Source: a virus. From it: a stretch of DNA of 40,994 bases. Position numbers and translations under genes: made by a program. Positions 6,906 to 40,599 of the stretch are shown here, one piece after another (position 1 is the first letter of the stretch; each line of letters opens with the position of its first letter). Under the pieces are notes generated by a model, which was not told the DNA's origin, ran no database searches, and saw nothing but the letters and a program-made list of their open reading frames with translations. The stretch covers positions 1 through 40,994 of IMG/VR virus record IMGVR_UViG_3300030419_005118. One strand, written 5' to 3'.

Positions 6906-7949
6906 CTATGCGCCAGTATCCAAGCCTGTATCTCCTGTGTCGCCTCCCTCCGTTGGAAAGTAGCGATACCCGACCTCCACTAAGTCGTTTCCACTTGGCA
7001 CAACTGTAAAATAAATAGTATTGTCGGAAGAAGTATACGTCCAATCATAATTTAATGCCCCATTTATGAAAACTCTTATCGAATCTTCGATAGGCTCGTG
7101 AGTTAGCTGAAGATATTCATACGGTTCCAGGCGAGAGGCTGCGTCTATTACACCAGCAGACCAATCTTCGGAGCAAACATCAACAATTTGGCCAGCAAAG
7201 TAATTGGTAGCCTCAATATACCTATCGCCATTATTATAAGCATTAGTATTGCAAAGCGACTCAGAAGGATCTATATTAACAATGCTTGATAAGAATACTG
7301 ATCCACCTCGTAGTCCCTGATACCATGATACGAACCCATCAACCGTTGGAAAGTGGGCATCACTTTGCTCCTCTTCATCGGACACAAACACTACTAGTAG
7401 CGCCGCATCATAGCGAAGCCATGTTTGAGCATATGTATTGTTGATGAGATATTCATAAGATGCATCGAAGCCTTCTTCCCTGTGCCCCCTTCCCATATTG
7501 TAGTACATATTCTCTGCGTCTACTATATCGTCACCAGGGACAAGTGGAAATTGAGCCTCTATAGAAGCGTATGATGGGTCATTGGTCATCATAGCCAATC
7601 GCCAACCACTGTCTGGCAGCGCCAAGAGCATCGCCTCTATTCCGGCCAACAATTGTTCATCATAGCGATTCATTGAGCCGGAAGTGTCAATAACCCAAAG
7701 AATATCAACACCATCGACCGACTGAGGTTGGATAAACGAGTCTACCCATATCTCGCCTGCATCAGCGGGAACCTCGACCTCTATGTAGACAGGCACCTCT
7801 ACTTCTTCATAAACAGTTTCATAAACTGTTTCCACCACGGTTTCAGTGCCGGATCCGACGATATGGTAATCCATGTTTGTGGTGCATCCGGTTACAAAAA
7901 GTATCGAAAGAAGAACTCCAATAATTCTTTTTGCAACTCCGACAAACAT
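6906..7949 (-). CDS. von Willebrand factor A domain lipoprotein (347 aa)
   Basis: Starts at ATG behind GGAGGATTG. A signal peptide with lipobox FVTGC (Cys about residue 22) predicts a lipid-anchored envelope protein. A Glu/Val/Thr-rich linker (VVETVYETVYEEVEVP) leads to a vWA domain with a MIDAS motif WVIDTSGSMNRYDEQ near residue 85. VVFVSDEEEQSD follows later, and two Cys may pair. After a C-terminal beta region the protein ends in repeated DTG (GDTGDTGLDTGA), a tail style I associate with lipoproteins of Myxococcota-like bacteria. Such proteins bind ligands through a divalent metal. A secreted vWA lipoprotein is unusual in a phage and may be a host-derived surface or exclusion factor. Confidence 0.85.
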   Translation of the reverse strand: MFVGVAKRIIGVLLSILFVTGCTTNMDYHIVGSGTETVVETVYETVYEEVEVPVYIEVEVPADAGEIWVDSFIQPQSVDGVDILWVIDTSGSMNRYDEQLLAGIEAMLLALPDSGWRLAMMTNDPSYASIEAQFPLVPGDDIVDAENMYYNMGRGHREEGFDASYEYLINNTYAQTWLRYDAALLVVFVSDEEEQSDAHFPTVDGFVSWYQGLRGGSVFLSSIVNIDPSESLCNTNAYNNGDRYIEATNYFAGQIVDVCSEDWSAGVIDAASRLEPYEYLQLTHEPIEDSIRVFINGALNYDWTYTSSDNTIYFTVVPSGNDLVEVGYRYFPTEGGDTGDTGLDTGA

Positions 7950-7954
7950 AGCTA

Positions 7955-8743
7955 TCAATCCTCCAATAGACCCTCTATCTCTTCTACACTAACGCCCCAA
8001 ATCGGAGAAACATACACAATATTTTCTTGTAGTTGCGGCCCAAAGATGCCCCGATTTACATCTATGGCAACCAAGACACCTATATATCTACCTCTGCTGT
8101 CAAAAACGCCAGAACCAGAAGATCCCATCCAAGCGTATGACTGCATGATGATAAATCCATGCCCATCGTCAATTCCTGCCAACGTACCATTTAGTGTCAG
8201 CGGTTCCGTATGCTCATGGTTGCCAGGGAAGCCAGTGTATAATACTTCCACGCCCTCATCAGCCTGTGCTGGGCGCAGCGGATTGAATCGAGCGGCATCC
8301 ACCGTTCTCATTCTTGGCACCAGCAACACACATATATCGCGCTCGCGGTTGCTATAAATTATTGTTCCAGCAACCATTTCACCGTCCTGACTCTGAACCA
8401 TCGCTCCTGAGATTCTAGGATCGTCGTACACATGGTACGCTGTTATAACAATGTGCGATCCCTTGTGTTCAAAATATGTGCCAGAGCCCCTGACAACTCT
8501 GTGGCCCGCAATTGTTCCCCACACGACAACGGCAGAGTCTTTTGACATCCTTAAAGTTCGTGCATGTCTTAGCGATGCGGGTACGGTTTCACCAACTGTT
8601 TCGCCGACCGTAGCTTCAGGCGCATGCGTATCTACGTTGCTTTGCGCTGCTTGATGCTGTGGGACCGGCGTGCATCCTAGGGCCATAAACAAAGCCGCGA
8701 ACCATAAAATCAGGGTGGATTTATGGCGTGCGACATGCTGCAT
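7955..8743 (-). CDS. Trypsin-like serine protease lipoprotein (262 aa)
   Basis: Signal peptide with lipobox MALGC, then a disordered linker with repeated VGETVGETV. The protease domain shows the chymotrypsin-fold triad: His in VITAYHVYDD (about 103), Asp in RERDICVLLV (about 136) and Ser in GSSGSGVFDSRG (about 208). GTLAGIDDGHGF and YIGVLVAID match the fold. No PDZ domain is present, so it is a minimal S1 protease anchored in the envelope. ATG follows GGAGGG. It lies 5 bases upstream of the vWA gene, so the two are co-translated and may act together. Targets are unknown. Confidence 0.85.
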   Translation of the reverse strand: MQHVARHKSTLILWFAALFMALGCTPVPQHQAAQSNVDTHAPEATVGETVGETVPASLRHARTLRMSKDSAVVVWGTIAGHRVVRGSGTYFEHKGSHIVITAYHVYDDPRISGAMVQSQDGEMVAGTIIYSNRERDICVLLVPRMRTVDAARFNPLRPAQADEGVEVLYTGFPGNHEHTEPLTLNGTLAGIDDGHGFIIMQSYAWMGSSGSGVFDSRGRYIGVLVAIDVNRGIFGPQLQENIVYVSPIWGVSVEEIEGLLED

Positions 8744-11435: not shown

Positions 11436-13013
11436 TTATACTCCGATAATAGCATGATTAGTGGTAATTAAAGTACCGGCGACCGACACCGCGTTTGAGA
11501 GGGCGGTGCCCGTTACCTTGACAGGATCAACGATTCCGGCCTCAAACATATCGCATTGTTCACTGTTGTAAAAACAATAGCCCTCGGTATCGCCTAGGCT
11601 CTCAACTAACGATTCGATTAAGTCGGGAGACAGGCCAGCGTTCAAGGCCATTTGTCGGAGCGGAGAACGAACAGCATGCTGTACTATACTAGCTCCCATA
11701 GCCTGATCGTCATTGTCGGCGTCGATGGTCAACTCTTTGCCGGCACGGATCAGTGCAACGCCTCCACCGGGCACAATGCCTTCGATTTGAGCAGAGCGCA
11801 CCGCCTCCAAAGCATCTTCGATTCTATGCTTTTTCTCGACCATTTCAATTTCAGTCGGTGCACCGACGCGAATGACTGCGATGCCACTAGCTAGGCGCGT
11901 AACTCTTTCCTGTATCCTCTCGCAATCATGCATGGACTCGGTAGATTTTAATTGATCCTTTAAGGTTTCAATACGTTGATCGACCAACTCATAATCAGCG
12001 TTACCTCCAACAACGGTTGTAGAAGTTTTTGTGCATTCGATAACCTTAGCAGATCCAAGATCCTCTAGCTTGGTTTCGTGCGCCTTCATGCCAGACTCGC
12101 GGGAGACAAACGTGGCGTTCACAGCGATGGCCAAGTCTTGCAAAATATTTCTTCGCTCCTCTCCATAGCGGGGAGCTTTGATAGCGGCAACCTTCAATGT
12201 CCCGCGCATCGCATTCATAATCATGGCCGCAAGTGCTTGATTTTCAATTTCTTCTGCGACTAAAACAAAAGGTCTTCCCTCTCTTGCAATAACTTCCAAA
12301 ATAGGCAGGATTTGCTCGACGGTCGAGATTGTATGGTCGGTTACCATGATCAACGGCTCGTCATAACGCATTATTCCTCGGCGCTCGTCAGTGATGAACG
12401 CAGTGGCACGATAGCCGGAATCAAAAATAAAACCCTCGGTAATGTCAAGAGAGGTTTCAGAAGATCGCGCTTCCTCAATTGTAATAGCGCCATCTTTTCC
12501 GACGCGATCAACTGCCATGGCAATCAAGCTGCCGATGCTCTTATCGTTGTTGGCAGAAATGGTCGCAACGTGGGCAATATCCTCCTCGCTGGTGATTGGC
12601 GTTGCTAGTTCTTTCAAATTGTCAATAACCGCTTCAGAAGCCTTGTCAATCCCTCGCTTGAGTTCAATCGGGCTAGCACCAGCAGTAAGGTATTTCTGAG
12701 CCTGCGTCAATATAGCTCGTGCCAAAACTGTTGATGTTGTTGTGCCGTCACCGGCAATATTATTTGTTTGTGTTGCTGCTTGTTTGATAATTTGGACACC
12801 AGCATTCATAAACGGATCGTCTAAATGAACGAATTGGGCCACGGTAACGCCGTCCTTTGTAATAATTGGGCTCTTACCTTTTTCTTGTAATATTACATTG
12901 CGCCCTTTCGGACCCAATGTTGATGCAACGTTATCCGCAAGGACATTAACGCCGTCAATAATCTTTTGATTCAGCGATGAATCTGAATCAAAACGCATTT
13001 TTAAGTCTGACAA
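11436..13013 (-). CDS. groEL: GroEL-like chaperonin (525 aa)
   Basis: Full-length group I chaperonin. The ATP site is intact: TLGPKGRNVIL, ITKDGVTVAQ with the conserved Asp, AGDGTTTSTVLARAIL, and RIEDALEAVRSAQIEGIVPGGG with the hydrolytic Asp. The apical domain shows YRATAFITDERRG and FVLVAEEIENQALAAMIMN. The Gly-Met-rich tail of host GroEL is missing, and the protein ends AIIGV. It probably folds phage capsid or replication proteins with the co-chaperonin encoded at 27310-27606. TTG start behind AGAGGTGTAAA. A sigma70-like promoter lies directly upstream, so it may be expressed early by host polymerase. Confidence 0.97.
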   Translation of the reverse strand: MSDLKMRFDSDSSLNQKIIDGVNVLADNVASTLGPKGRNVILQEKGKSPIITKDGVTVAQFVHLDDPFMNAGVQIIKQAATQTNNIAGDGTTTSTVLARAILTQAQKYLTAGASPIELKRGIDKASEAVIDNLKELATPITSEEDIAHVATISANNDKSIGSLIAMAVDRVGKDGAITIEEARSSETSLDITEGFIFDSGYRATAFITDERRGIMRYDEPLIMVTDHTISTVEQILPILEVIAREGRPFVLVAEEIENQALAAMIMNAMRGTLKVAAIKAPRYGEERRNILQDLAIAVNATFVSRESGMKAHETKLEDLGSAKVIECTKTSTTVVGGNADYELVDQRIETLKDQLKSTESMHDCERIQERVTRLASGIAVIRVGAPTEIEMVEKKHRIEDALEAVRSAQIEGIVPGGGVALIRAGKELTIDADNDDQAMGASIVQHAVRSPLRQMALNAGLSPDLIESLVESLGDTEGYCFYNSEQCDMFEAGIVDPVKVTGTALSNAVSVAGTLITTNHAIIGV

Positions 13014-15298: not shown

Positions 15299-15952
15299 CT
15301 ATATAATTAGGTCAGCGATGCCCAATTTTACCGCTTCTTCGGCACTTAAATACACGTTTACTTTTTTTTCTAACATTTTTTTCAATTGTCTGGTAGTCAT
15401 ATTTGTTTCATCGACAAGAGCCTTAATATATTGCTCTTGAATATATCTTACTTCTTCCATTTCATTTTCAAGATTGTGCAGCGATCCCGCGTACCCTCCG
15501 ACTGCGCTGTGAATCATGACGCGGCAATTTCGTCCGATTTCTCTCTGACCTTTTGTGCCGGCGGCCAACAGCAAGACGCCGGCTGACATGACCTTGCCAA
15601 GCCCTCGGGTAATAATATCACAATCCTTCTTCACGTTACGCATAACATCGTAGATGCCAAACATTTCTTCGGCGGATCCACCATGCGTAGATAAAATAAA
15701 TTGTATCGGATTGACCACCTTGACAATCTCTGAGTTGGGATCGCTCGGATCTGATAGTTGCTCCACCTCTCGTGACCGATGGAAGTGCATTAGCGAGTAA
15801 ATTGCTTCTGATGACTTCTCTTCATTGATGTCGCCAACGATGCCGAATGCGCGAAATTCATCATCGCCTTTCTCATCCGATCCAACTAGGATAAATGTTT
15901 TGTTGTCGTCCACCTTCTCATCTACACTATCAGTAAATTTTTTCGGTTTCAC
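15299..15952 (-). CDS. ClpP-family protease with Asn at the triad Asp position (217 aa)
   Basis: S14 fold. It has FILSTHGGSAEEMFGIYDVM (oxyanion region), GKVMSAGVLLLAAG with the catalytic Ser near residue 122, and RVMIHSAVGGYAG with His near 146. By alignment to the ERDRFLSAPEAV region of E. coli ClpP, the third residue of the triad falls on the N of KVNVYLSAEEAVKLG. A charged 25-residue N-terminal extension precedes the fold. It could assemble with the second ClpP of this phage or act as a capsid-maturation protease. GTG start behind GGAGAAATA. Confidence 0.88.
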   Translation of the reverse strand: MKPKKFTDSVDEKVDDNKTFILVGSDEKGDDEFRAFGIVGDINEEKSSEAIYSLMHFHRSREVEQLSDPSDPNSEIVKVVNPIQFILSTHGGSAEEMFGIYDVMRNVKKDCDIITRGLGKVMSAGVLLLAAGTKGQREIGRNCRVMIHSAVGGYAGSLHNLENEMEEVRYIQEQYIKALVDETNMTTRQLKKMLEKKVNVYLSAEEAVKLGIADLII

Positions 15953-20207: not shown

Positions 20208-20810
20208 TTATTCGAAATTAAAATCAACTTTAACATCAAAAGAAAACTTAGGCACGCGCAACTGGTTAGCTAGCTTATGCTTCATGCACTCGTCTGCATC
20301 GAGAAACCAATCGGCATGACCCTTTTCATGAACAATTTTCAAGAAATAGTCTTCCTTCTTTCCGCAATTCCTTGCCATCATCTTATAAACAATTTTATTG
20401 AGACGGTCAGTCTCCTCGGCACTAGCTTTGATCTCCTCAACCTTGCCTCGATCCATCGATGACACATCGTGAATCATAACTGTGGCATTGGGATCCATAA
20501 AGCGCATGTCCTTTGCCCCAAAAGAGAATAAAATAGCGCCGCACGACATCGCCTTGCCTTCAACAATTGTGGCAATAGGCAACTCTGAGTGTTCAATCTC
20601 TGATATCATCGCCATCAGCGAATACACTTGCCCACCATATGAATCAATAACGATTGGAATGACAGGTTGGCCTGTGTTGTGAGCATCGCTCATTTTCTCA
20701 GAAAATTCTTGAGCGGATTTTTCATCAAACTTGTTAACACGAATAATAACAGGCGTTCGACGTAGTTCAATTTTATGAAGTAGTGGATCTTTTGTATATG
20801 TAATCTTCAT
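20208..20810 (-). CDS. ClpP-family protease with complete triad (200 aa)
   Basis: S14 fold. IVIDSYGGQVYSLMAMISEI is the oxyanion region, EGKAMSCGAILFSFGAKD holds the catalytic Ser near residue 89, and ATVMIHDVSSMDRGK holds His near 112. GHADWFLDADECMKHKLA places an Asp near 167 at the third position. The handle region AEETDRLNKIVYKMMARNCG is normal. Overlaps the polymerase gene by 4 bases (ATGA). A regulatory protease or prohead protease are both possible, and no Clp ATPase is in the window. Confidence 0.9.
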   Translation of the reverse strand: MKITYTKDPLLHKIELRRTPVIIRVNKFDEKSAQEFSEKMSDAHNTGQPVIPIVIDSYGGQVYSLMAMISEIEHSELPIATIVEGKAMSCGAILFSFGAKDMRFMDPNATVMIHDVSSMDRGKVEEIKASAEETDRLNKIVYKMMARNCGKKEDYFLKIVHEKGHADWFLDADECMKHKLANQLRVPKFSFDVKVDFNFE

Positions 20811-27309: not shown

Positions 27310-27606
27310 CTAGTCTCTAATTCTACCGATAACATAATTTTCTAGAATAACCTGATACGCTTCTCCCTTGAATTGGATTTCATTGATCATTGAAGCCTCA
27401 ACTAGCAACGTTGCATCTTCTATGAGATCGCCAACACTATTGCAATCATTAGCACAGGCTAACAAGCGAACTGCAGCATATTGCTCCTGTTTTGGTTTGT
27501 AGGTTTCTGGTAGGACGATACCTAGATCGTCTTGTTCTTCCGATGATTCCGCTTCTTCATTAAGAAACTCGATTAGTATGTGCCGATTCATTGGTTTGAA
27601 TTGCAT
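27310..27606 (-). CDS. groES: GroES/gp31-like co-chaperonin (98 aa)
   Basis: Begins MQFKPMNRHILIEFLNEEAE, like GroES. A mobile-loop region rich in Glu/Ser/Asp ends in the chaperonin-binding GIVLPETYKPK. YAAVRLLACANDCNSVGD, LLVEASMINEIQFKGEAYQV and ILENYVIGRIRD complete the beta-barrel. It resembles phage co-chaperonins more than bacterial GroES. The natural partner is the phage GroEL at 11436-13013, 14 kb downstream, or the host GroEL. ATG behind AGGAGTTATTGACA. Confidence 0.88.
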   Translation of the reverse strand: MQFKPMNRHILIEFLNEEAESSEEQDDLGIVLPETYKPKQEQYAAVRLLACANDCNSVGDLIEDATLLVEASMINEIQFKGEAYQVILENYVIGRIRD

Positions 27607-27811
27607 TGTCAATAACTCCTTTGTGAATATTGTATTCGCCGTGACTTAAAAAAATATATTCTCGCTTGTCGCAATGCTTACAAAAAAACGCAATCGCAAC
27701 GTTGTCTCCTAGCTTGGCCTCGATCGACCCTGTGGGCAACCAGTAATGCTGTTTGCCGCTGTGGCATCTGCCAAGCTCCAAGTGTCTGGGCAACAAATGA
27801 TTTAATTTCAA
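27560..27811 (-). CDS. Zinc-binding-like phage protein (83 aa)
   Basis: TTG start behind GAGAGGTGTATT. HLELGRCHSGKQHYWLPTGS, then VAIAFFCKHCDKREYIFL, has Cys/His positions fitting a small zinc site (one Cys-x-His, one CKHC). I recognise it as a recurrent phage gene of unknown role. It overlaps groES by 47 bases. Confidence 0.8.
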   Translation of the reverse strand: MKLNHLLPRHLELGRCHSGKQHYWLPTGSIEAKLGDNVAIAFFCKHCDKREYIFLSHGEYNIHKGVIDNAIQTNESAHTNRVS

Positions 27812-31229: not shown

Positions 31230-31381
31230 GGAGATTCTTCGTCTTCTTCGCCAGCTTCTGGTAGATCTTCTAGCTCCTCCAAAGAAAGATCTAACGTCGG
31301 CCTAGTATCGACTAGTTGCTCCTCAACTTGCACATTTTTCGATGCACAACCTGTTGCTAATATTAGCAATAACTTCTTCAT
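31226..31381 (-). CDS. Small lipoprotein (51 aa)
   Basis: MKKLLLILATGCASKNVQVE has a basic start, a short hydrophobic core and the lipobox LATGC. The mature part is acidic (LDLSLEELEDLPEAGEEDEE). The ATG overlaps the upstream stop by 4 bases. The predicted product is a 40-residue lipid-anchored peptide in the envelope. It may be an Rz1-like spanin piece or an exclusion factor, but it is acidic rather than Pro-rich. Confidence 0.75.
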   Translation of the reverse strand: MKKLLLILATGCASKNVQVEEQLVDTRPTLDLSLEELEDLPEAGEEDEESP

Positions 31382-34300
31382 TTTAACATATTCCTTAGCT
31401 TTCGTCTAACTGTTTCTCGAATAACTTTTTTAATTAGTTCTTCTTTGCTCTCGCCCATAGTGCCCATTACCCGCTGCACCTGATCGTCAAGTTCTTTTTC
31501 TCTTTGCGGCAATTCCATTTCTTCAGGGGTTAGCGGTGTTAACTTTGGCTCGTAGCGGAAAGGACTGCCCTTGGCTACGGCATGGGGAGCGCCATAATAT
31601 CTGAGTGTTTTTGTTACCTCCCAAACCCAATTGTAAGGGTAGCCTGGGGTTTGTTCGAAAATGCCCTGATCGCCTGTTTCAATTCGGGTATAGTGCCCCT
31701 CGCCATCATAAATTGTTTTGCTTGAACTCCCATCCATTGGCTCAAGGTACTCTTCAACAGCTGCCAGCCTCTCTATCTTGGACATATTTGGCCAGTTTTT
31801 TCTGATAAATGCAATTACAGCCATAGCGCCTGGATCCTCTCGCATGTTTGGATCGGTTTGGATGCTGCCGATTAACTTTTGAGCATTCTCGCCATCATAT
31901 TGCTTTTCATGCTCTGTTTGAATTCTTGCAAGCGCTGCGTCGATCATTTTTGTTGCCGTCATCTGCATCGCTTTATGAATCATGTCGGCGTGCTTGTCAA
32001 CGAATCTTACGAACTTGAACGTACCGTCTAACGCTTCTCTAGACTGAGATTGTTTTGCGTAAATTCTAAAGCTGTAATGTATGATTGGATTCATAGCGTA
32101 AAGGGAGCCGGTCTCTTGGCTCCAGTTAGTTGGCCCAACAACTCGCACTCTTATTCTCGTGTCCTCGGCAAAGTTCACACCCTTGAAGGCTGGTCTTTTG
32201 TACTCATCGCCAAAGGCTAGCTCTAACTGGTTCACTGCGTATCCATTGGCCTCTTCTTCTAACTGCTTGACGTGTTTCAAAAACTCAGTTTTGAATTGTG
32301 ACATGTGAATATCAATCGCTTGTCTTCTTTGGGTTACGGATTCGCCGGCGTCACGAAAATCGCCGGATGGAGTAAAGGTTGTAAACCCTGGCACAAGAAA
32401 GCCGCCGCCGATAACATCGGGCATAAACACATTTTTGATAAAGTCGGTGGCATCAATTTTTCTTGGCATTCCGTTAATTGGAAACTCAACACCTGTTGAT
32501 ATGACCGCGCTGGGTGAATCGCCCATGTCTTTACCCATCAAGGTAAATAATACCTCGCCATCTGGCTCATCCTCATCCTCTCCAACAACAATAAAATTCT
32601 TTAACTCGTCTTCAATTTCTTCGACCTCTTCTCTTGTGTCGTCCCACGGGCTGGGCGCAAGATAGAAATCGTTTACCAAGGCTCTTCGAATTTTCTCGTG
32701 AATAGTTTCCCAGTAGCCCTCGCATTCTTTAAGCTCTTCGATAAATTGTTCGAACTCGTCTACCTCGTAGGTGTTGGGCTCAAAAAGAACATTGAATTCC
32801 ACCTCAAGAACTGCGTAGCCTTGACCAATCGGCATACCTCGCTCATTGGTATCTGGGTGCTCCGTTCGGACATGCCACCGTATACCATCAATTGAGGAAT
32901 ATAGACGATTTTCAAAGCCAGCTTCAATAAGATTGGCCAAGTTTCTAATTTGATCTTTATGAGTTTGATTTGAAGCTGAGTATAAATATTCAAACTCTGG
33001 AATTGAATACTCGCCGTCTTCTGCATATTCTCCTGGGTATGGGTGGCCGCCGCCCGCAAAATTAACTAGTTCCCACTTCTTCCAGTTTGTTTTAAACTCC
33101 ATCATAACGCTAGCGCCGCCGCTAACACTTGGTTGTTCCTCGTGATAATCATCAACATGCGCAGAGGCTTGAAAATGCTCTAAAGTATTGCTAGCAAGAT
33201 CGTTCAATTCTTCGACTCTCTCATTATACACATCGTAAAGGTTTGGACCCTCGTCGCTGGTGTCATGCTTAAAGTTCTGGTAATTATAGCCGTCGTATCC
33301 TGATCGTTCCAGCATCTCTTCGCCAGCTTCTTTAAAGAACTCGTCAAACAGTTCACCGTCTTTAGTGTCCTCCCAGGATCCGCCATATCTTATGATATCC
33401 TGTTCTCTAGGAAATTCTATTTGCTGCTCTTCTTCGGGTGGGCCCTCGTCAATAAAGATATCTTTTTGCTGATCCCACGACCATTTTCGAACCGCCTCAA
33501 CGAATCCTGGGGGGTGTGGCCCATAAGTTGCCATCTCTGGTATGGCAAAAGTCTCATCTGTGGATTGGTCATAATATTTTCTTATTCTGACGCGGGACTG
33601 TGCAATAATCCCCTTCACGTCTCTATCTCTATCTCTGAAAATTTCTTGTGTATCAAAATCGCCTATATCTCTCAAATCCTCGGGCTCGTGCTCGTCACCT
33701 GTGACTAGCGACCATTCCTTGCCGGCCCGGGCAGCGCTAACTGCATCATGAAACGCTTGATATGTCAGCTGATCTTTGGCTGTGCTGGGGAGATTATCAA
33801 CGTCTCGTCTGGTGGTTGGATTGAGCCGATCCTTGAGTGCATCGACACCAAATTCAAACAACTCGCGATTATCCAACTGCTTAAGCAGGGAGCTATAAAA
33901 TTTTGGATTCTTGATTGCATGTTTTCTAATAAATTCTTCTGCTTTTTGCTTGGCAAATCTTTCTGACATATCGAATGCAGCTTCGGGATCGTCTGCGGTG
34001 TCATATTCTGAATACAATCCCGCTAGCAGATCTTTATAATCTTTTTCTTTAACCAAATATGCAATTGGTCCATGGCCTTTAGCTTCTGCAACTGCACACT
34101 TAAAATAACTATTTCGAGGACTGTGGCATGATTCAATGGCTCCAATATCGCTCATTCGCAAAACGTCGATTGGATGACGAGTGAGGACAACCATATAACT
34201 TGTTGCATCACCCGACATTAGACCTTCTATTTCTTTATAATTCTCATCTTTTGTATAGTAAGTTTGTCGCCTCTGCCACCAGTTGAGAAGATCGGGATCA

Positions 34301-34812
34301 AGCTTTTTCTCTTTTATGAGCTTTTGCATAAGTTTAGCCATGCCGCGTCTATCTTTTTTCTGAATTGTCTCGCCCTTGCGTGGACCAGCAGGAATCGTAA
34401 AATCATATACCTTTTCGAATTCGATGTCAGCAACAGTTATTTCAATTTCATACTCCTCGCCTGTTCCCAGGCGGCGCTTCTTTTGTTTTACTCGTCTGCG
34501 GTTGAAGTAGCGATTGTCCAAAGAGTCGGCAGGGATCTGGTAGCCCTCTTTTCTTATTACTGATACAACGGTTTTTAGATTTCTGGCATCGTCTGTGTCG
34601 AGCGGGAATGCAAGGCGCATTTTTCCGCCGAAGAGATCATCGAAAGAGTAATCATGAGGGCCGGCCTGAGCCATCCACTTGCGAATTGCATTGGATTGTT
34701 CAGCGGACACTTCATTGAGCACTTTTATGTATTGTTCACGGAGAAGTTTGTGTTTATCTGCACTTCTCTCCTTGTGGCAAAATCGATTCCAATTTTCAAA
34801 TATTTGCTTCAC
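31378..34812 (-). CDS. Large ENW-tagged protein of unknown function (1144 aa)
   Basis: GTG start behind AAGAGGAATATCC. It opens with the shared tag MKQIFENWNRFCHKE. After about 150 charged residues comes a conserved segment TSYMVVLTRHPIDVLRMSDI, IGAIESCHSPRNSYFKCAV and GHGPIAYLVKEKDYKDL, known to me only from uncharacterised phage proteins. The Cys-His pair could be catalytic. The rest is acidic with many aromatic residues. The protein ends in a basic amphipathic helix (LIKKVIRETVRRKLRNMLK). Its size and tag suggest a packaged or virion protein. Possible processing site LLRE near residue 25. Confidence 0.82.
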   Translation of the reverse strand: MKQIFENWNRFCHKERSADKHKLLREQYIKVLNEVSAEQSNAIRKWMAQAGPHDYSFDDLFGGKMRLAFPLDTDDARNLKTVVSVIRKEGYQIPADSLDNRYFNRRRVKQKKRRLGTGEEYEIEITVADIEFEKVYDFTIPAGPRKGETIQKKDRRGMAKLMQKLIKEKKLDPDLLNWWQRRQTYYTKDENYKEIEGLMSGDATSYMVVLTRHPIDVLRMSDIGAIESCHSPRNSYFKCAVAEAKGHGPIAYLVKEKDYKDLLAGLYSEYDTADDPEAAFDMSERFAKQKAEEFIRKHAIKNPKFYSSLLKQLDNRELFEFGVDALKDRLNPTTRRDVDNLPSTAKDQLTYQAFHDAVSAARAGKEWSLVTGDEHEPEDLRDIGDFDTQEIFRDRDRDVKGIIAQSRVRIRKYYDQSTDETFAIPEMATYGPHPPGFVEAVRKWSWDQQKDIFIDEGPPEEEQQIEFPREQDIIRYGGSWEDTKDGELFDEFFKEAGEEMLERSGYDGYNYQNFKHDTSDEGPNLYDVYNERVEELNDLASNTLEHFQASAHVDDYHEEQPSVSGGASVMMEFKTNWKKWELVNFAGGGHPYPGEYAEDGEYSIPEFEYLYSASNQTHKDQIRNLANLIEAGFENRLYSSIDGIRWHVRTEHPDTNERGMPIGQGYAVLEVEFNVLFEPNTYEVDEFEQFIEELKECEGYWETIHEKIRRALVNDFYLAPSPWDDTREEVEEIEDELKNFIVVGEDEDEPDGEVLFTLMGKDMGDSPSAVISTGVEFPINGMPRKIDATDFIKNVFMPDVIGGGFLVPGFTTFTPSGDFRDAGESVTQRRQAIDIHMSQFKTEFLKHVKQLEEEANGYAVNQLELAFGDEYKRPAFKGVNFAEDTRIRVRVVGPTNWSQETGSLYAMNPIIHYSFRIYAKQSQSREALDGTFKFVRFVDKHADMIHKAMQMTATKMIDAALARIQTEHEKQYDGENAQKLIGSIQTDPNMREDPGAMAVIAFIRKNWPNMSKIERLAAVEEYLEPMDGSSSKTIYDGEGHYTRIETGDQGIFEQTPGYPYNWVWEVTKTLRYYGAPHAVAKGSPFRYEPKLTPLTPEEMELPQREKELDDQVQRVMGTMGESKEELIKKVIRETVRRKLRNMLK

Positions 34813-34844
34813 GGATATTCCTCTTCATAATAAATAGTTCTAAT

Positions 34845-35534
34845 TCAACAACGCATCTGTTGCAAATTGTATTTGTCTCCAGATTTAACGACTTTATAAA
34901 TTACTAATTCAAAATCATCTGGCTTGATCTCAGCAAGGGCCTCACTGTTGCAAACTTTGGCAAGAACGTCATCAATGTTTCTCTGCGAATCTTCATAATA
35001 CTCTATGCGGCGAATATTTGATTTTCCGTCGCTCATGATTTTATTTCGCATCATGGCGACCATCACATCACCCTTTGACTCGCCTTCAGTCGCAATTGGT
35101 CGAACTCGGCTAGAATCAATGCCAATTTGTTGAATATAGTCCAATATTGGCCCCAGCGAGTTGCCACGTCGAGCAGTCATAATATATGTCTTAGAATCGT
35201 CTGTAAATTGTTTCATGATGTCGGTTACGACTGTTATTTCCTCTGGATCTTTGACAATTGAAAAATCACTCAAATCAATTTGATATCCAAGCTCCCTGAG
35301 ATCATCGATGGGATCGTATGATCGAATATTTTCTTTTTCTGCCGCCTGATTCATGTATTCTTCAAATTCTTTTTGATTTCCAAGTGTTGCAACTGATCCA
35401 TCAGGTGCCTTCACTCGGGTCTCTGACGTGGTGTGTGCGATTGTCTCATCAAAATCAAAAATACGAAGCGTGGTGATAGGCTCCTCCATTTCCTCATTAA
35501 CAAACTTTCGCCAATTTTCAAATATCAGTTTCAT
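34845..35534 (-). CDS. ENW-tagged HAD-superfamily phosphatase (229 aa)
   Basis: Tag MKLIFENWRKFVNEE, then a HAD domain. Motif I is LRIFDFDETIAHTTSE, motif II is KTYIMTARRGNS, Lys in TEGESKGDVM is motif III, and motif IV is IEYYEDSQRNIDD. The layout resembles small phosphatases such as the 3'-phosphatase half of T4 polynucleotide kinase. A nucleic-acid or nucleotide end-processing role is possible. Its first 17 bases overlap the previous gene in another frame, so the tag codons are used twice. Confidence 0.88.
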   Translation of the reverse strand: MKLIFENWRKFVNEEMEEPITTLRIFDFDETIAHTTSETRVKAPDGSVATLGNQKEFEEYMNQAAEKENIRSYDPIDDLRELGYQIDLSDFSIVKDPEEITVVTDIMKQFTDDSKTYIMTARRGNSLGPILDYIQQIGIDSSRVRPIATEGESKGDVMVAMMRNKIMSDGKSNIRRIEYYEDSQRNIDDVLAKVCNSEALAEIKPDDFELVIYKVVKSGDKYNLQQMRC

Positions 35535-36135
35535 TAGATAAAATCTCCGCTAATCCGCCATAATCTGCCCAATCTCGGTAACCTAGACGCGGATCGTTCA
35601 AATCTTTTCTATACACAATAAATTTTTTAATCATTTTTGTAACATCGCCAATCCCGGCGCCAAGCTTATCTTTTAGTTTTTCTATTGGATCTTCTAATAG
35701 TTCAAGAAATTCTTTCAAGTACTCGGGAACTTTTATAATTTTCTCTAAAGCAAAGCCTCCTGTCATTTTAGCCGCAGCAGTAAAAATCATAACTGCCAAT
35801 TCTATATGTTTGTTGGTCATTAATAATTTAACTGCGTTTGTTTCATGTCGGGCACGATATTTTTTAAATACACCTTTAGATTTAAGTTGGGCAATAAAAG
35901 CTTCCATTTTTTGCCCCATAAATTTAACAAATTGTCTGATCTTATCATCAGCCCAGTCTTTCATATCATCGATAACATTAACAACCGCATCTTTAATACC
36001 TCTTCCGGCGCTAATAACATCGTCTATAATTCCTTCGTCCAAGGCGCTAAAATGCTTATCAAAGAAAGTTTCAAATTCTTGTTCATAAACAACCTGAGAT
36101 TGATAGTCTCGCCAATTTTCCATTAAGAGTTTCAT
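35518..36135 (-). CDS. ENW-tagged helical protein (205 aa)
   Basis: Tag MKLLMENWRDYQSQVVYEQE, without an obvious L-x-E. A helical acidic stretch (IDDVISAGRGIKDAVVNVID) follows, then a basic stretch (VFKKYRARHETNAVKLLMTN), HIELAVMIFTAAAKMTGGFA with a hydrophobic helix, and a charged C-terminus. KKYRARxxxNAxxLLMTNKHIxLAVM is a conserved block I know from other large phages. Function is unknown. Confidence 0.8.
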   Translation of the reverse strand: MKLLMENWRDYQSQVVYEQEFETFFDKHFSALDEGIIDDVISAGRGIKDAVVNVIDDMKDWADDKIRQFVKFMGQKMEAFIAQLKSKGVFKKYRARHETNAVKLLMTNKHIELAVMIFTAAAKMTGGFALEKIIKVPEYLKEFLELLEDPIEKLKDKLGAGIGDVTKMIKKFIVYRKDLNDPRLGYRDWADYGGLAEILSNETDI

Positions 36136-36803
36136 GTCTGGTCTATAAACCTCCCTAGCTCTATTAGTTTATTTATGGTGGTCGGCTGCTTTGTGTATCT
36201 CTTGCTTAGAGAGTTGTCGGGCCAATGATATTTGCCTCCAAGACCAGCCACGTATTGGTCACAATTGTCTTCATCGATATCGGGTGTGAGCGTGTTCTCC
36301 AAATCGTCAAGCTGATAGTTGTCGACATCAGAGCGTTGTCCTAGATAATAATCCCAAACGGCCCGGGCAAAGCTTGAAACCTCTTCACGATCAGCAATAA
36401 GGCCACCGCACTTGCGACCATCTTCGCAATGGGAGTGGCCCCACATCGTGGCATATTCCATTGCTACATCATAAAGAAGTGGGCCCCACTTGTCAGTCAC
36501 TTGGGACCATTTGACTTGCCAAGCGAGATGACAAGGGCCATGGCCCGCATATTCTCCTTCATCGTGGGGCGCTATCTCAATCTCTCCTGAGATTGGACTA
36601 TCATAGCCAAGCACGTATGGTGTTCCAAATCTGTCAACGCTAGCGTACACAAGCTCTACAGCACCATCCCCCGTTGCAGAGGGTTTGGCCAATATGTACA
36701 GGCCGCGGTCGCCTGGAATTTCCTCATTGTCAACAAGGTCATCAACCGTCATTGCTGCTTCGGTTAATAGATACTTCCGCCAATTTTCAAATAGGAGCTT
36801 CAT
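36132..36803 (-). CDS. ENW-tagged protein with GPLLYDVAMEYA motif (223 aa)
   Basis: Tag MKLLFENWRKYLLTEAAMTV, where LLTE followed by Ala fits the T4 prohead-protease rule L/I-x-E best of all members. The body has CHLAWQVKWSQVTDKWGPLL, YDVAMEYATMWG and CGGLIADREEVSSFARAVWD. The sequence GPLLYDVA...GGLIADR recalls acetyltransferase-like (GNAT) proteins of phages, but the acetyl-CoA loop is not clear. ATG overlaps the upstream stop (ATGA) and follows GAGG. Confidence 0.8.
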   Translation of the reverse strand: MKLLFENWRKYLLTEAAMTVDDLVDNEEIPGDRGLYILAKPSATGDGAVELVYASVDRFGTPYVLGYDSPISGEIEIAPHDEGEYAGHGPCHLAWQVKWSQVTDKWGPLLYDVAMEYATMWGHSHCEDGRKCGGLIADREEVSSFARAVWDYYLGQRSDVDNYQLDDLENTLTPDIDEDNCDQYVAGLGGKYHWPDNSLSKRYTKQPTTINKLIELGRFIDQT

Positions 36804-37351
36804 TCTGTATCCTCGTGTTCTTCTTTAGATCTTTCGGCCAAAAGCTTTACCTCAACAATTCCTCTAGAGTCCCAGATGCAACCAGAGGCAACATCCCAGC
36901 CATAATACCAATCTGCGGACATTCGAGCGTGCGACTGGTAAGGGCAAATTTCAATTCCACTATAGCCGGCATCTTGTATCGCTTTCCAGTCCATCACTTC
37001 ACCACCGAAGCGCCCTGGTCGAAGAAAATTTTCCTGAAGCCAGTCAAATTCGTCAGCATTCGTAATGCGCAAAACATCATCACCCAATACAACTTCATAT
37101 AAATAATTAGATTCCTCTAGCCAATGGGGCATTTCATATTTAGTCCAGTCAATCCAGTCATCACCACAGGAATACCATAACCCTTGAGGTTTTTTCGAGA
37201 AGCTTTGAGGCGTTTGCTGTGCTACATTTCGGAATTCGGTATAAGGCTCTTTTGATATAAAAACTTTTTCTTCAGGTTGTATATGGTGACCCAGGAATTC
37301 GCTCTGCTCCGTTAGAAGATATTGGCGCCAATTTTCCATTAATAATTTCAT
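36800..37351 (-). CDS. ENW-tagged protein with GLWYS motif (183 aa)
   Basis: Tag MKLLMENWRQYLLTEQSEF. The body contains KKPQGLWYSCGDDWIDWTKY, HWLEESNYLYEVVLGDDVLR, then MDWKAIQDAGYSGIEICPYQ and WYYGWDVASGCIWDSRGIVE. I recognise the family from phages and plasmids as uncharacterised. The early GLWYS loop, late Ser-Gly-Cys and acidic ends are compatible with an ADP-ribosyltransferase-like fold, which would parallel T4 Alt. This is speculative. Overlaps the next gene by 4 bases. Confidence 0.78.
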   Translation of the reverse strand: MKLLMENWRQYLLTEQSEFLGHHIQPEEKVFISKEPYTEFRNVAQQTPQSFSKKPQGLWYSCGDDWIDWTKYEMPHWLEESNYLYEVVLGDDVLRITNADEFDWLQENFLRPGRFGGEVMDWKAIQDAGYSGIEICPYQSHARMSADWYYGWDVASGCIWDSRGIVEVKLLAERSKEEHEDTE

Positions 37352-38812
37352 CTATCTTTTGCTCCAAGTTGGTACTCCGGTAGCTATATTTCCTATATCA
37401 GTCTGTACAGTTATATCATCACCTTCTCCGACTGCAGCATTAGTTAATATTCCGTGCCAACCATATGGACCTAAATCTTTAACAGTTGTTCCACTACCTT
37501 CATTGAATTTCCAATATGCTACAAGACCATCTCCACCTGAATTTTTATGGTTATAATCAGTTCCACCATTATATACACTCCTAACCCAATCGTTATCTTT
37601 AAGTTCATTATAGATAGCTACATCATCAAGTCCACAAGCGTGTCCGTTGTTATATTTAGACTTTTTAGTACCATCTGCCATTGATTCGTTTATTTTTAAT
37701 GCGCGCATACCAAAACTAAAACCACGAGTCATTACCGAATCCAAATGAGCAGTCCATGTAAGTAGACCTGTACGGTCAACATTATGCCAGTCATTATAAT
37801 CAGTGCCTATTGCTTCAGAATTATATCCATATATTTGTTTGCCATTGAAATATATCCTACGATACCTTGCTGTTTCATCTGCATTATCGTTACCTACAAA
37901 TGTTATTACAATATGATACCAATTGTCCAATATTAAATTAGAATCTCCATCAAGAAATTCATACAAATCTGTGTTTCCTGAATTCATAAACATCGTCACC
38001 CAGGAGTTATGACCACCATAAGTTCCAAATGTATTACTACCTATACCAAAATATGGCCTAGCTGCATTTCTCATACCAAAAGAAAATCTAGCTGTACTTT
38101 CCCTTTTCCATCCCATAGCAAATGCATCACCTGTATGTTCATCTGGTCTATACCAATAAGATATAGTAAATCCTGATTCTGCAAGTGGTTTTCTACCAGA
38201 GCCTTCCGCAAAGCCTTTATTTGTAGGGTCATTAGGAGTAAATTCAGTTCTTACCAAATCTGCTCTAGCGGTTGCTTGAGTATCACCGGTAAATGATAAG
38301 AAATAATCTATATTTCCTTCTCTTTTGCGGCCACGCGGGGGATGGGGTCGCGTTCTATAGCGCTGTTTTGCTAACAAGTTGTCGCGCTTAAACATCTCCA
38401 TTGCATAATCAAAATCTAAAGCAGCCAGCCTTTGATTAAGGGGGTCGGCTAGCCAACCAACCCAATCAAGCTCTTGAAGAGAGGGCTCACGACTTTGCAT
38501 TATAGTCTCTATTTCTTCAAGCTTGTTATCCTTTTGGAATTGGTCCTTTATCTGAGCCAGTAAAATATCAAGCTGTTTGTCCCATTTTTGTTCCGCTGTT
38601 TCTTCTTTTCTTTGAATGTACATCCGATGAAGACGTTCTGCCTCCTGTTGCTCCAGAAGAAGCTTTTTGCGTGCAGCGATCTCTTCTTGCTTGCGCGCTT
38701 CGGCTTCAATTTTAGCAATACGGGCGGCCTCTTTCTCAGCTTCCAATTTAGCCTCGCGTTGCATTTTTTTTCTCAATAATTTTTGTCGATATTTAAGATA
38801 TTGTAAATTCAT
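37352..38812 (-). CDS. Coiled-coil plus LamG-type domain protein (486 aa)
   Basis: Residues 1-100 form a charged coiled coil (KLEAEKEAARIAKIEAEARK). A linker (WVGWLADPLNQRLAALDFDY) precedes a basic hinge (RTRPHPPRGRKREG). From about 167 to the end is a concanavalin-A/LamG-like lectin domain: FTISYWYRPDEHTGDAFAMG, NLILDNWYHIVITFVGN, RRIYFNGKQIYGYN, GLDDVAIYNELKDNDWVRSV and LVAYWKFNEGSGTTVKDLGP. Such domains bind glycans, so a tail-fibre or capsid-decoration role is likely. Arg codons change from CGN to AGA at the hinge, suggesting the lectin part was acquired. It lacks the ENW tag of its neighbours. Confidence 0.85.
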   Translation of the reverse strand: MNLQYLKYRQKLLRKKMQREAKLEAEKEAARIAKIEAEARKQEEIAARKKLLLEQQEAERLHRMYIQRKEETAEQKWDKQLDILLAQIKDQFQKDNKLEEIETIMQSREPSLQELDWVGWLADPLNQRLAALDFDYAMEMFKRDNLLAKQRYRTRPHPPRGRKREGNIDYFLSFTGDTQATARADLVRTEFTPNDPTNKGFAEGSGRKPLAESGFTISYWYRPDEHTGDAFAMGWKRESTARFSFGMRNAARPYFGIGSNTFGTYGGHNSWVTMFMNSGNTDLYEFLDGDSNLILDNWYHIVITFVGNDNADETARYRRIYFNGKQIYGYNSEAIGTDYNDWHNVDRTGLLTWTAHLDSVMTRGFSFGMRALKINESMADGTKKSKYNNGHACGLDDVAIYNELKDNDWVRSVYNGGTDYNHKNSGGDGLVAYWKFNEGSGTTVKDLGPYGWHGILTNAAVGEGDDITVQTDIGNIATGVPTWSKR

Positions 38813-38836
38813 TGTTGTATACCAGCACCCCTCATG
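38808..38836. repeat. 29-bp leader repeat, copy 1
   Basis: Matches 39547-39575 with one mismatch. On the minus strand it holds the end of the 2H-phosphoesterase gene (IMRGAGIQQ, stop) and the ATG of the coiled-coil/LamG gene. The other copy precedes a microprotein start. Confidence 0.85.
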
Positions 38837-39474
38837 ATTCCCAATGCAGCTTGTTCTGGTTTATTAAACTTATTCATTATAATATTTTTAATTTGCTCCG
38901 GAGGCAACCCCCTGGTGGCCAACACTTTGGCAAATTCAACAGGATTATCTTGCCCTTTGGGCTTTTGTTGTTTTGGCTTCTCTTTCTTCTTTTGCTTGGC
39001 AGCGCGCTCTACGACGATACCAGTTACATCAAAAGATTTTTCCAGAGGCTCCCAATTGATAATCTTATTTGAGTGAAATGGCTTTCCATCTGGCGGCACC
39101 AACGCGGTGATGTGCGGGTGCTCATTTTTTATGGGCAAATTGTCAAAACTATCTGGATTGACCCTAAAGGCCATGGCCTTAGCACCCTCTTCGTTTACTA
39201 TGCCCCACTGATCAACAGTTAGTTTGATGGGCATATCATTTTCCCAACCGGGCAATAACGGGCCCATATTGATTGTCATGTGATGTGGCCATCTCCCTTC
39301 AGGGCTTTTTACAAATTCCGGCGGTACTTTGCCTTCCGCCCTCAGTTGTTCTGCCGCTTTTAATACGGCAAGAGCGTGATCACCATCCAATACCACGGAA
39401 GAATAATTAAGAGGTGGTCCTGCGTAGTTTCCTTCCGTTAAGAACTTTCGCCAATTTTCAAATAATATTTTCAT
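38809..39474 (-). CDS. ENW-tagged 2H phosphoesterase (221 aa)
   Basis: Tag MKILFENWRKFLTEG, with LTE before Gly as a probable processing site. The domain has two H-x-T-type motifs: RWPHHMTINMGPLLPGWEND near residue 64 and NEHPHITALVPPDGKPFHSN near 120. The 2H superfamily includes tRNA-ligase phosphodiesterases and 2'-5' RNA ligases. GKPFHSNKIINW is close to fungal tRNA ligase CPD domains. After a Lys/Gln-rich linker there is a small helical end (FAKVLATRGLPPEQIKNIIM). Likely acts on RNA ends or small cyclic nucleotides. Confidence 0.85.
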   Translation of the reverse strand: MKILFENWRKFLTEGNYAGPPLNYSSVVLDGDHALAVLKAAEQLRAEGKVPPEFVKSPEGRWPHHMTINMGPLLPGWENDMPIKLTVDQWGIVNEEGAKAMAFRVNPDSFDNLPIKNEHPHITALVPPDGKPFHSNKIINWEPLEKSFDVTGIVVERAAKQKKKEKPKQQKPKGQDNPVEFAKVLATRGLPPEQIKNIIMNKFNKPEQAALGIMRGAGIQQ

Positions 39475-39551
39475 ATGACTCTCTCCCCATTAAAAAACGA
39501 AAATCTGAAAAAATTTGCCGGCAAAAAATTTGGCCATTTCGAATATTTCAT
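39471..39551 (-). CDS. 26-aa microprotein, copy 1
   Basis: MKYSKWPNFLPANFFRFSFF followed by NGERVI. The stop overlaps the ATG of the 2H gene (ATATGA), and its last codons supply GGGGAGAG as that gene's ribosome binding site. A second copy at 40642 differs at six bases, three of them synonymous and two giving Val/Ile. Aromatic and basic, it may insert in or lie on a membrane. Confidence 0.62.
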   Translation of the reverse strand: MKYSKWPNFLPANFFRFSFFNGERVI

Positions 39552-39552
39552 T
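39499..39552. repeat. 54-bp perfect repeat, copy 1
   Basis: Identical to 40670-40723. It encodes the first 17 codons of the 26-aa microprotein. On the minus strand it contains the palindrome TTTGCCGGCAAA followed by six T, so it could also act as a weak terminator. Confidence 0.9.
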
Positions 39553-39575
39553 GTTGTATACCAGCACCCGTCATG
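39547..39575. repeat. 29-bp leader repeat, copy 2
   Basis: Matches 38808-38836 with one mismatch. Here the same bases carry the stop of the Lys/Cys-rich gene (in another frame) and the ATG of microprotein copy 1. Confidence 0.85.
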
Positions 39576-40599
39576 CTACCGACTTACTTCCCCTACATTT
39601 CCATTTTTTTCTAGAGAGCGTATTCGCACAAGGGGGGTTTTTACATTTCTTGATCTTTGCAGATCGAGCGCAGTAGGCGTCAGCCTTTGCTGTTCCGGGT
39701 CGAATTCGATCCCCGCCGCCTTTCGCTTGGCCGGCCTGACCATAAGAACGACATTTGCCATCAACTCGTTTGGCGAATCTCTTTCCCTTTGAAGGTTTGC
39801 ATGGTTTTTTCTTTTTTTCGGCTAAAAATGCTTCAATTTCTTCATCGATAATCCTATTTAATGATTCGCTTTTTGGTTCTTCCTTGCACGCAGAGGGCGT
39901 CGGTCTGCAGTAAGGCTTCTCTTTTCTATCACCCTGTGCACATTCTTTATATCCGCCATCTCCATCGGGAGCATTGCAATCAACCCAGCCACCTTTTGAG
40001 CCCTTTTCTCCTTTACGATCAAACCAGTCTCCAAGATGCTTCTCTTTACTAGCTTGCTTTTTTTCTTGTAAAATTTTTGTTAATTCATCTTCAATAATTG
40101 ATTGTAGATGTTCTTTTTTAGACTTACCCCAATTGGCTGCTCCCACTTTGCGACATTTCACAAGGGCTCCGGAGGCATAAGCAGAGGGCCAAACTTCATA
40201 ACGAGACTTTACTTTATGGTAACAAGCATCTCTTTTTTTGGCTTTCTTTTCCTCAAGCTCGATTTCGTTTAATTCCTCTTCTTTCATGATATCGCCAATT
40301 CTGTCGGCTTGGCTCTTATGCATTTTTGATGCGCCCTCAAGCTCTTTTCTAATCTTTTTTAATTCTTTTTCGTCTTCCCTGTCTTCTTCTTCTCCGACTA
40401 GTTTGGCAGCACCTCTTTTTCTGGAACGTCTATTTCGATCTTCGACTTCTGACCCGTAGGTATCTCGTGTGTCGGCGCCTTCATCGGTCTTCTTCACACA
40501 AGAGCCCTGTGCGAACTCTTTGCTGCCCGGGACGCGTTCATAGCCATCCTGACAATCTTCTTGCAAGAAGTTTTTCCAGTTTTCCATAATTAATTTCAT
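39571..40599 (-). CDS. ENW-tagged Lys/Cys-rich modular protein (342 aa)
   Basis: Tag MKLIMENWKNFLQEDCQDGY. Three basic Cys-containing modules follow acidic helical linkers ending in L-x-E-K-K. The first begins KKRDACYHKVKSRYEVWPSA and continues ALVKCRKVGAANWG, a domain I recall as DUF5872. The second is KHLGDWFDRKGEKGSKGGWV with CRPTPSACK. The third is GKRFAKRVDGKCRSYGQAGQ with RPGTAKADAYCARSAKIKK and NTLSRKKWKC. The linkers LEEKKAK, ILQEKKQ and FLAEKKK look like T4-type prohead protease sites. It may be a packaged polyprotein cut into DNA-binding pieces. Confidence 0.82.
   Translation of the reverse strand: MKLIMENWKNFLQEDCQDGYERVPGSKEFAQGSCVKKTDEGADTRDTYGSEVEDRNRRSRKRGAAKLVGEEEDREDEKELKKIRKELEGASKMHKSQADRIGDIMKEEELNEIELEEKKAKKRDACYHKVKSRYEVWPSAYASGALVKCRKVGAANWGKSKKEHLQSIIEDELTKILQEKKQASKEKHLGDWFDRKGEKGSKGGWVDCNAPDGDGGYKECAQGDRKEKPYCRPTPSACKEEPKSESLNRIIDEEIEAFLAEKKKKPCKPSKGKRFAKRVDGKCRSYGQAGQAKGGGDRIRPGTAKADAYCARSAKIKKCKNPPCANTLSRKKWKCRGSKSVA

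Follow-up and report, generated by a model that had tools for sequence, protein, structure and literature searches.

In phage T4, the prohead protease gp21 cleaves after L/I-x-E and the first 10 residues of internal protein (IP) III are enough for packaging, with residues 4 and 7 serving mainly in targeting and residues 8 and 10 in processing (PMC9026906). IPII and IPIII start with MKTYQEFIAEA and IPI with MKTFKEFT (AF158101); T4-type internal proteins are diverse, and the capsid-targeting sequence (CTS) alone is conserved (PMC3012670). Alt of T4 is trimmed at both ends, and two proteins of phage SPN3US carry an identical 15-residue N-terminus (PMC5694885). In phage P1, the N-terminal 30 residues of DarB bring a reporter into heads, with no shared consensus found among the Dar proteins (PMC9024508). 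Here, we describe a peptide, termed the ENW tag, that opens seven unrelated proteins in a 40,994-base virus fragment from IMG/VR (IMGVR_UViG_3300030419_005118; the whole stretch is called the window). We consider this 14–15-residue tag, at a probability of roughly 0.87, to be a T4-type capsid-targeting propeptide.

On the minus strand of the window, positions 31378–40599 hold eight open reading frames (ORFs) in succession, seven of which start with MK(L/I/Q)xxENW (Table 1). Their 5′ ends at 34812, 35534, 36135, 36803, 37351, 39474 and 40599 were all verified, and an unsupervised comparison of window N-termini returned exactly these seven ORFs as its largest cluster. Similar pairs numbered 28 among 221 candidate N-termini vs. 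two among 203 internal Met-started segments. The tag on seven unrelated proteins, as put forward in the original prediction, is thereby confirmed with two amendments: its length, first given as 12–15 residues, is 14–15, ending at a Glu, and one ORF within the run, encoding a LamG-type protein (37352–38812), is untagged. The ortholog of this ORF in another tag-bearing contig (G011:C1:73030-74388, 49%) is likewise untagged and likewise sits between tagged genes. The LamG-type protein has a long charged N-terminal helix.

Since an N-terminal bias had to be avoided, 2.9 million viral contigs were scanned for the core FENW[RS]K[YF]L as degenerate DNA without demanding a start codon. Among 66 distinct matches, 60 were preceded by a start codon at a distance of exactly four residues, three lay within 13 residues of an N-terminus and three were chance-like, i.e. 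63/66 were N-terminal overall. A contig scan with one relative of a window cargo protein gave 14 loci, five of them matched through the tag alone. ORFs fitting the tag profile at residues 2–12 (positions after 12 were unused in selection) formed a tagged set of 210, or 194 when made non-redundant at 80%; families were reached via the tag or via relatives of tagged proteins, on incomplete contigs with predicted gene starts. The bodies of the 210 ORFs sort into 108 families without detectable mutual similarity, in line with the earlier expectation that the tag occurs at the N-termini of mixed domains. The tag, with MKLLFENWRKYLxE as its full-length form (e.g. MKLLFENWRKYLTEA), is borne by as many as about 11 genes in one genome. 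Rare C-terminal copies, reminiscent of the C-terminal cleavage of T4 Alt by gp21, end directly before the stop codon in G011:C1:74956-76791 (...CLFENWRGFLKED / ...NNLNCLFENWRGFLKED) and G012:C1:40-207 (...AHLFESWRTYLNETLI). Searching the INPHARED phages by tblastn with the tag alone gave no match, and literature searches brought up nothing relevant on the peptides FENWR or IIKEE.

The tag ends sharply. Its profile holds 2–6 bits at almost every position through E14 and ~0 from residue 17; W8 is present in 190, Y/F11 in 188 and E14 in 158 of the 194 non-redundant ORFs. At residues 12–14 or 13–15, [LIVMF]-x-E occurs in 170/194 tags vs. 2.3% per position in the bodies, and the residue two before the tag Glu is L/I/V/M, not A/S. 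Directly after the Glu, A/G/S/N account for 43% of residues vs. 24% (p=6e-8) and Pro is absent (0/170; p=3e-4), the pattern expected of a protease site. An earlier [LIVMF]-x-E lies at tag residues 4–6 in 191/194 cases, eight residues ahead of the second. Within the window, the L/I-x-E predicted for the matching place holds for five of the seven tags ([LIV]-x-E at residues 12–15) and fails for 31378–34812 and 35518–36135.

Aligned without gaps, Y4, F7, I8 and E10 of IPIII coincide with W8, Y/F11, L12 and E14 of the tag, all strongly conserved; the likeness to the T4 signal is thus closer than had been claimed. Like the T4 CTS, the tag is a short N-terminal peptide on unrelated bodies, built around an aromatic-x-x-aromatic-aliphatic-x-E core, ending in [L/I]-x-E and found in genomes with a gp21-type S77 protease. 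Given this residue match and these shared traits, the ENW tag qualifies as a CTS by sequence and should work like one. It departs from the T4 version in its N-terminal LLFEN extension, its all but invariant Trp and its much wider cargo, which comprises at least 108 body families with many enzymes among them, and its carriers form a lineage of large, uncultured T4-superfamily phages distant from T4. T4 Alt, a packaged ADP-ribosyltransferase cut at ITE-6 and LTE-619, offers a parallel in its enzyme cargo and terminal gp21 propeptides; homology of the window cargo to Alt is not established. Ejection-protein propeptides of SPN3US and phiKZ come from head proteins that a gp21-related protease cleaves after Glu, but they are mostly long and follow an A-x-E or S-x-E motif that the ENW tag does not fit. 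P1 DarB is comparable for its N-terminal capsid signal; P1 is without a separate T4-type scaffold.

Judged by sequence, a close relative of the window phage is the 161.7-kb contig G001, which bears a head module: identity is 73% for DNA polymerase III alpha, 77% for ribonucleotide reductase and 70% for DnaB-type helicase. G001 and five more fully read contigs encode terminase, gp20, gp21-type S77 protease, gp22-like scaffold and gp23 in T4 order, and an S77 (T4 gp21-type) prohead protease is present in 10 of the 11 ENW-tag contigs of at least 120 kb. The gp21-like protease called for by the original prediction is therefore found in relatives, in some adjoining tagged genes, though not in the window. 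At locus L130, gp21 lies between the end of a tagged, ATPase-like gene and the start of a second tagged gene; at L080, L089 and L100, a tagged gene directly follows gp21. Residues H85, S140 and D168 of T4 gp21 are invariant in the aligned relatives. gp23 loses a 65-residue N-terminal region to T4 gp21 (PMC9958956), and the Glu aligned with T4 gp23 E65 is invariant as well, falling on LLRE in marine major capsid proteins (MCPs). The cultured phages with the nearest MCPs are Flavobacterium phage immuto, Microcystis phage Mel-JY01 and Rhodothermus phage RM378. The window itself encodes two different ClpP-like peptidases (15299–15952 and 20208–20810), both matched by ClpP-type head maturation protease PHROG profiles; the relatives use the S77 protease for their heads.

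Orthologous bodies carry exchanged tags. In G005 (G005:C1:64191-120640), a sister lineage without ENW tags, the leader MKLLREYIRELLTE stands on six genes and has the same eight-residue [LIVMF]-x-E spacing as the ENW tag; on G005_120182 it occupies the place of MKLIMEQWRKYLTE in a tagged relative (54% over 120 aa), and the G005 orthologs of the window 36132 and 36800 proteins bear this LLREYI tag, too. G011_84496 begins with the T4-CTS-like MKAFKEYLEE where relatives carry MKLVMENWRKHLTE, and G009_164485 has a KQIIKEE-type leader on an orthologous body. The untagged immuto_106221 starts M-GGNVFSS and a tagged relative reads MKLIFENWRKFLDE-GGNVFDG (40% over 308 aa), so that the start of the former coincides with the predicted cut in the latter. 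Across a 12-sequence alignment of the 36132 family, the tag Glu is invariant and the rest of the tag changes.

ENW is not the only recurrent leader. A second common one, MKITKxxLKQIIKEELxxxLxE, spans at least 94 unrelated body families among 104 proteins and has I-x-E at residues 12–14 and [LIVMF]-x-E at 19–21 (26%) or 20–22 (36%; n=155). Its genes (loci L164–L243, e.g. L226; G011 80749–94258; G012 127314–173660) often adjoin gp21 or mix with ENW-tagged genes. Phage immuto (MW353175) has a recurrent leader of its own, M(E/A)NxFDLKKFLVEN, at 1803, 103806, 117631, 118632 and 125241. Tag-like stretches also occur in head proteins, namely in the gp23 pro-segment LLENQAKELLRE (T4 KIFENQ...FLTE) and at the gp21 N-terminus, LLxE-aromatic (T4 LLIETW), part of a region reported to block the active site of gp21 until activation (PMC9958956). 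With a position-specific scoring matrix, the gp23 pro-segment ranked among the best tag matches in every MCP checked, at tail probabilities of 1e-4 to 1e-3 per position that are non-independent, the proteins being homologous. We regard these likenesses of the tag to gp23 and gp21 sequences as suggestive. Tentatively, and with the odds slightly against it, marine large T4-superfamily phages may possess a set of interchangeable tags (ENW, LLREYIRELLTE, ITKxxLKQIIKEELxxxLxE and immuto FDLKKFLVE) that act as gp21-site docking helices for plug-in effector genes and imitate the parts of head proteins that meet the protease (LLENQAKELLRE and gp21 LLxE-aromatic). If so, the tags would serve as an index to everything that uncultured phages inject.

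For the ENW tag, we infer that its carriers are packaged in virions, lose 14–15 residues and are injected. Late in infection, the tag would dock unrelated cargo proteins onto the prohead core, likely through the aromatic W8 and Y/F11. The gp21-type S77 protease would then cleave after Glu14/15 ([L/I]-x-E), and probably also after Glu6, freeing the cargo within the head. From there the cargo would most likely leave together with the DNA, enter the next cell and target RNA, nucleotides, host proteins or host defence at an early stage; by analogy with T4, cargo injection is the most likely purpose of the tag. Several observations weigh against this proposal. The canonical site is absent from 24/194 tags, including two of the seven in the window, and the amphipathic spacing of L-x-E could partly reflect a docking helix. 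The S77 search had no match in a 122-kb tag contig (G021), and the window, a 41-kb fragment, is without head genes, S77 protease included. Guanylate kinase, deoxyribonucleotidase and NUDIX cargo would also be plausible as ordinary intracellular enzymes. On balance, the interpretation originally offered for the tag is largely supported.

Known before was the T4 capsid-targeting peptide, on few genes of one phage group; the extended version seen here marks >100 protein families, many of them enzymes, in uncultured phages. Were the proposal true, a 14-residue tag would reveal from sequence what phages inject before expressing any gene, and candidate proteins for counter-defence and takeover could be catalogued in this way. 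The tag would also be a swappable packaging signal. How cargo is chosen for the head, an old question, becomes directly testable, since nature has already made the swaps by placing different tags on orthologous bodies.

Docking and cleavage might instead apply to proteins that stay behind as parts of the core, aiding head assembly or DNA condensation without being injected. Such a role would suit the position of tagged genes next to gp21 within the head operon, the slowed head assembly of T4 IPIII mutants (PMC9026906) and the Lys-rich tagged protein in the window. Core proteins, however, would hardly comprise 108 unrelated bodies, including RNA, nucleotide and protein-modification enzymes, nor would their content be as patchy and hypervariable among relatives, and we regard this explanation as unlikely. 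Less probable still is an address to some other phage-made place, such as the tail, the membrane or a replication compartment: several cargoes are indeed nucleic-acid or nucleotide enzymes, but the abrupt end at the gp21 consensus, the preferences at P1′, the T4-CTS-like sequence that substitutes on orthologs and the adjacency to gp21 all point to the head.

The repeated 5′ ends might instead represent a DNA or RNA element, i.e. a recombination cassette or translation-start signal, with the peptide being incidental. The tag codons are in fact more uniform than expected: in the window, 50/121 pairs of identical residues use different codons, compared with 68.6 expected under independence, and TTT, GAA and CGA are enriched within the tag across the family (CGA 49% vs. 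14%, GAA 97% vs. 69%). The earlier claim that codons vary between copies hence holds insofar as the wobble position varies more, and falls short in the number of differing pairs. Some common DNA descent is accordingly visible beside peptide selection, and the tag probably also spreads between genes as a 5′ DNA cassette, which is compatible with a peptide function. As conservation is far higher at the first two codon positions than at wobble, upstream of the tagged genes nothing is conserved except a weak purine-rich ribosome-binding stretch, orthologs carry different peptides at this place and rare copies are C-terminal, an element acting purely at the nucleic acid level is very improbable. 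We give as little credence to the seven proteins being paralogs with one N-terminal folded domain. Their first 14 residues are common to all, but similarity ceases past residue 16, the bodies fall into 108 families and the tag is modelled as a separate helix of low confidence. A common folded N-terminal domain is contradicted by the sequence data, and the tag accordingly holds up as lying outside any one shared fold.

Most of the 108 bodies lack a Pfam assignment. Where Pfam matched, single families were assigned to poly(A) polymerase/tRNA nucleotidyltransferase, guanylate kinase, NUDIX, AAA_33, HD, DEDD exonuclease, protein kinase, 2H phosphoesterase, HAD, deoxyribonucleotidase, alpha/beta hydrolase, papain-like domain, GNAT and HNH. 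A T4 internal-protein family was not among the 23 Pfam families matched by the bodies (for PHROG, 25 of 54 families listed).

Within the window, Pfam and PHROG assigned few of the cargo proteins. The HAD phosphatase proposed for 34845–35534 is backed by its motifs and by a weak BLAST match (E=3e-7) to G011_74422, which also bears the tag, while a Pfam search gave no match. The 2H phosphoesterase proposed for 38809–39474 is borne out by Pfam, its score (23.5 bits) being just above the cut-off of 23. The 31378–34812 ORF has a 61-aa match with G001_10018, which starts with MNINDWRSFLQES, and the 39571–40599 ORF contains two ‘xxIIxEExxxxLxE’ segments inside the protein. AlphaFold2 modelled the tag of 36132–36803 as a separate helix (residues 1–11, pLDDT confidence <50; body mostly 80–95); this model of decent quality had no significant PDB match, and a profile search reached GNAT at E=0.46 only. 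For 36800–37351, the model was poor (54.7) and the best Foldseek matches, to PARP and RES folds, were not significant (E about 0.3–0.9), so this protein is possibly, on weak model evidence, ADP-ribosyltransferase-like.

Table 1. ORFs of the tagged run in the window, with the N-termini and tags of the tagged proteins.
ORF	Strand	Length (aa)	Description	Basis	Tag position	N-terminus	Tag
31378–34812	−	1144	Tagged, GTG start	No Pfam or PHROG match	34771–34812	MKQIFENWNRFCHKE	Same as N-terminus; degenerate, usual place without [LI]-x-E
34845–35534	−	229	Tagged, HAD-phosphatase-like	FDFDETI, TAR and EYYED motifs read from sequence	35493–35534	MKLIFENWRKFVNEE	MKLIFENWRKFVNE
35518–36135	−	205	Tagged, no function assigned	ORF call	36094–36135	MKLLMENWRDYQSQV	MKLLMENWRDYQSQ; residues 12–14 without canonical L-x-E
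36132–36803	−	223	Tagged	11 aligned homologs	36759–36803	MKLLFENWRKYLLTE	Same as N-terminus
36800–37351	−	183	Tagged, phrog_8582	PHROG match	37307–37351	MKLLMENWRQYLLTE	Same as N-terminus
37352–38812	−	486	Untagged, within run; Laminin_G_3 / concanavalin-like (LamG-type) domain	Pfam			
38809–39474	−	221	Tagged, 2H phosphoesterase-like (HMT, HIT motifs)	Pfam tRNA_lig_CPD	39433–39474	MKILFENWRKFLTEG	MKILFENWRKFLTE
39571–40599	−	342	Tagged, Lys/Cys-rich, phrog_727	PHROG match	40558–40599	MKLIMENWKNFLQED	MKLIMENWKNFLQE

Elsewhere in the 40,994-base window, no tRNA genes were found. The gene at 6906–7958, whose product looks like a lipoprotein and combines a von Willebrand A-type domain (DILWVIDTSGSM) with a DTGDTG tail, overlaps that of an apparent trypsin-like secreted protease (7955–8743). 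GroEL (11436–13013) is 65% identical to its G012 counterpart, and a GroES-like small protein lies at 27310–27612. Tiny proteins starting M(K/Q)(V/I)GDLV(K/R) are encoded at 678–854, 851–1015 and 1664–1927, as well as in G011 and G012, with up to 14 per genome; these are probably paralogs sharing a small beta-domain, not carriers of a tag.

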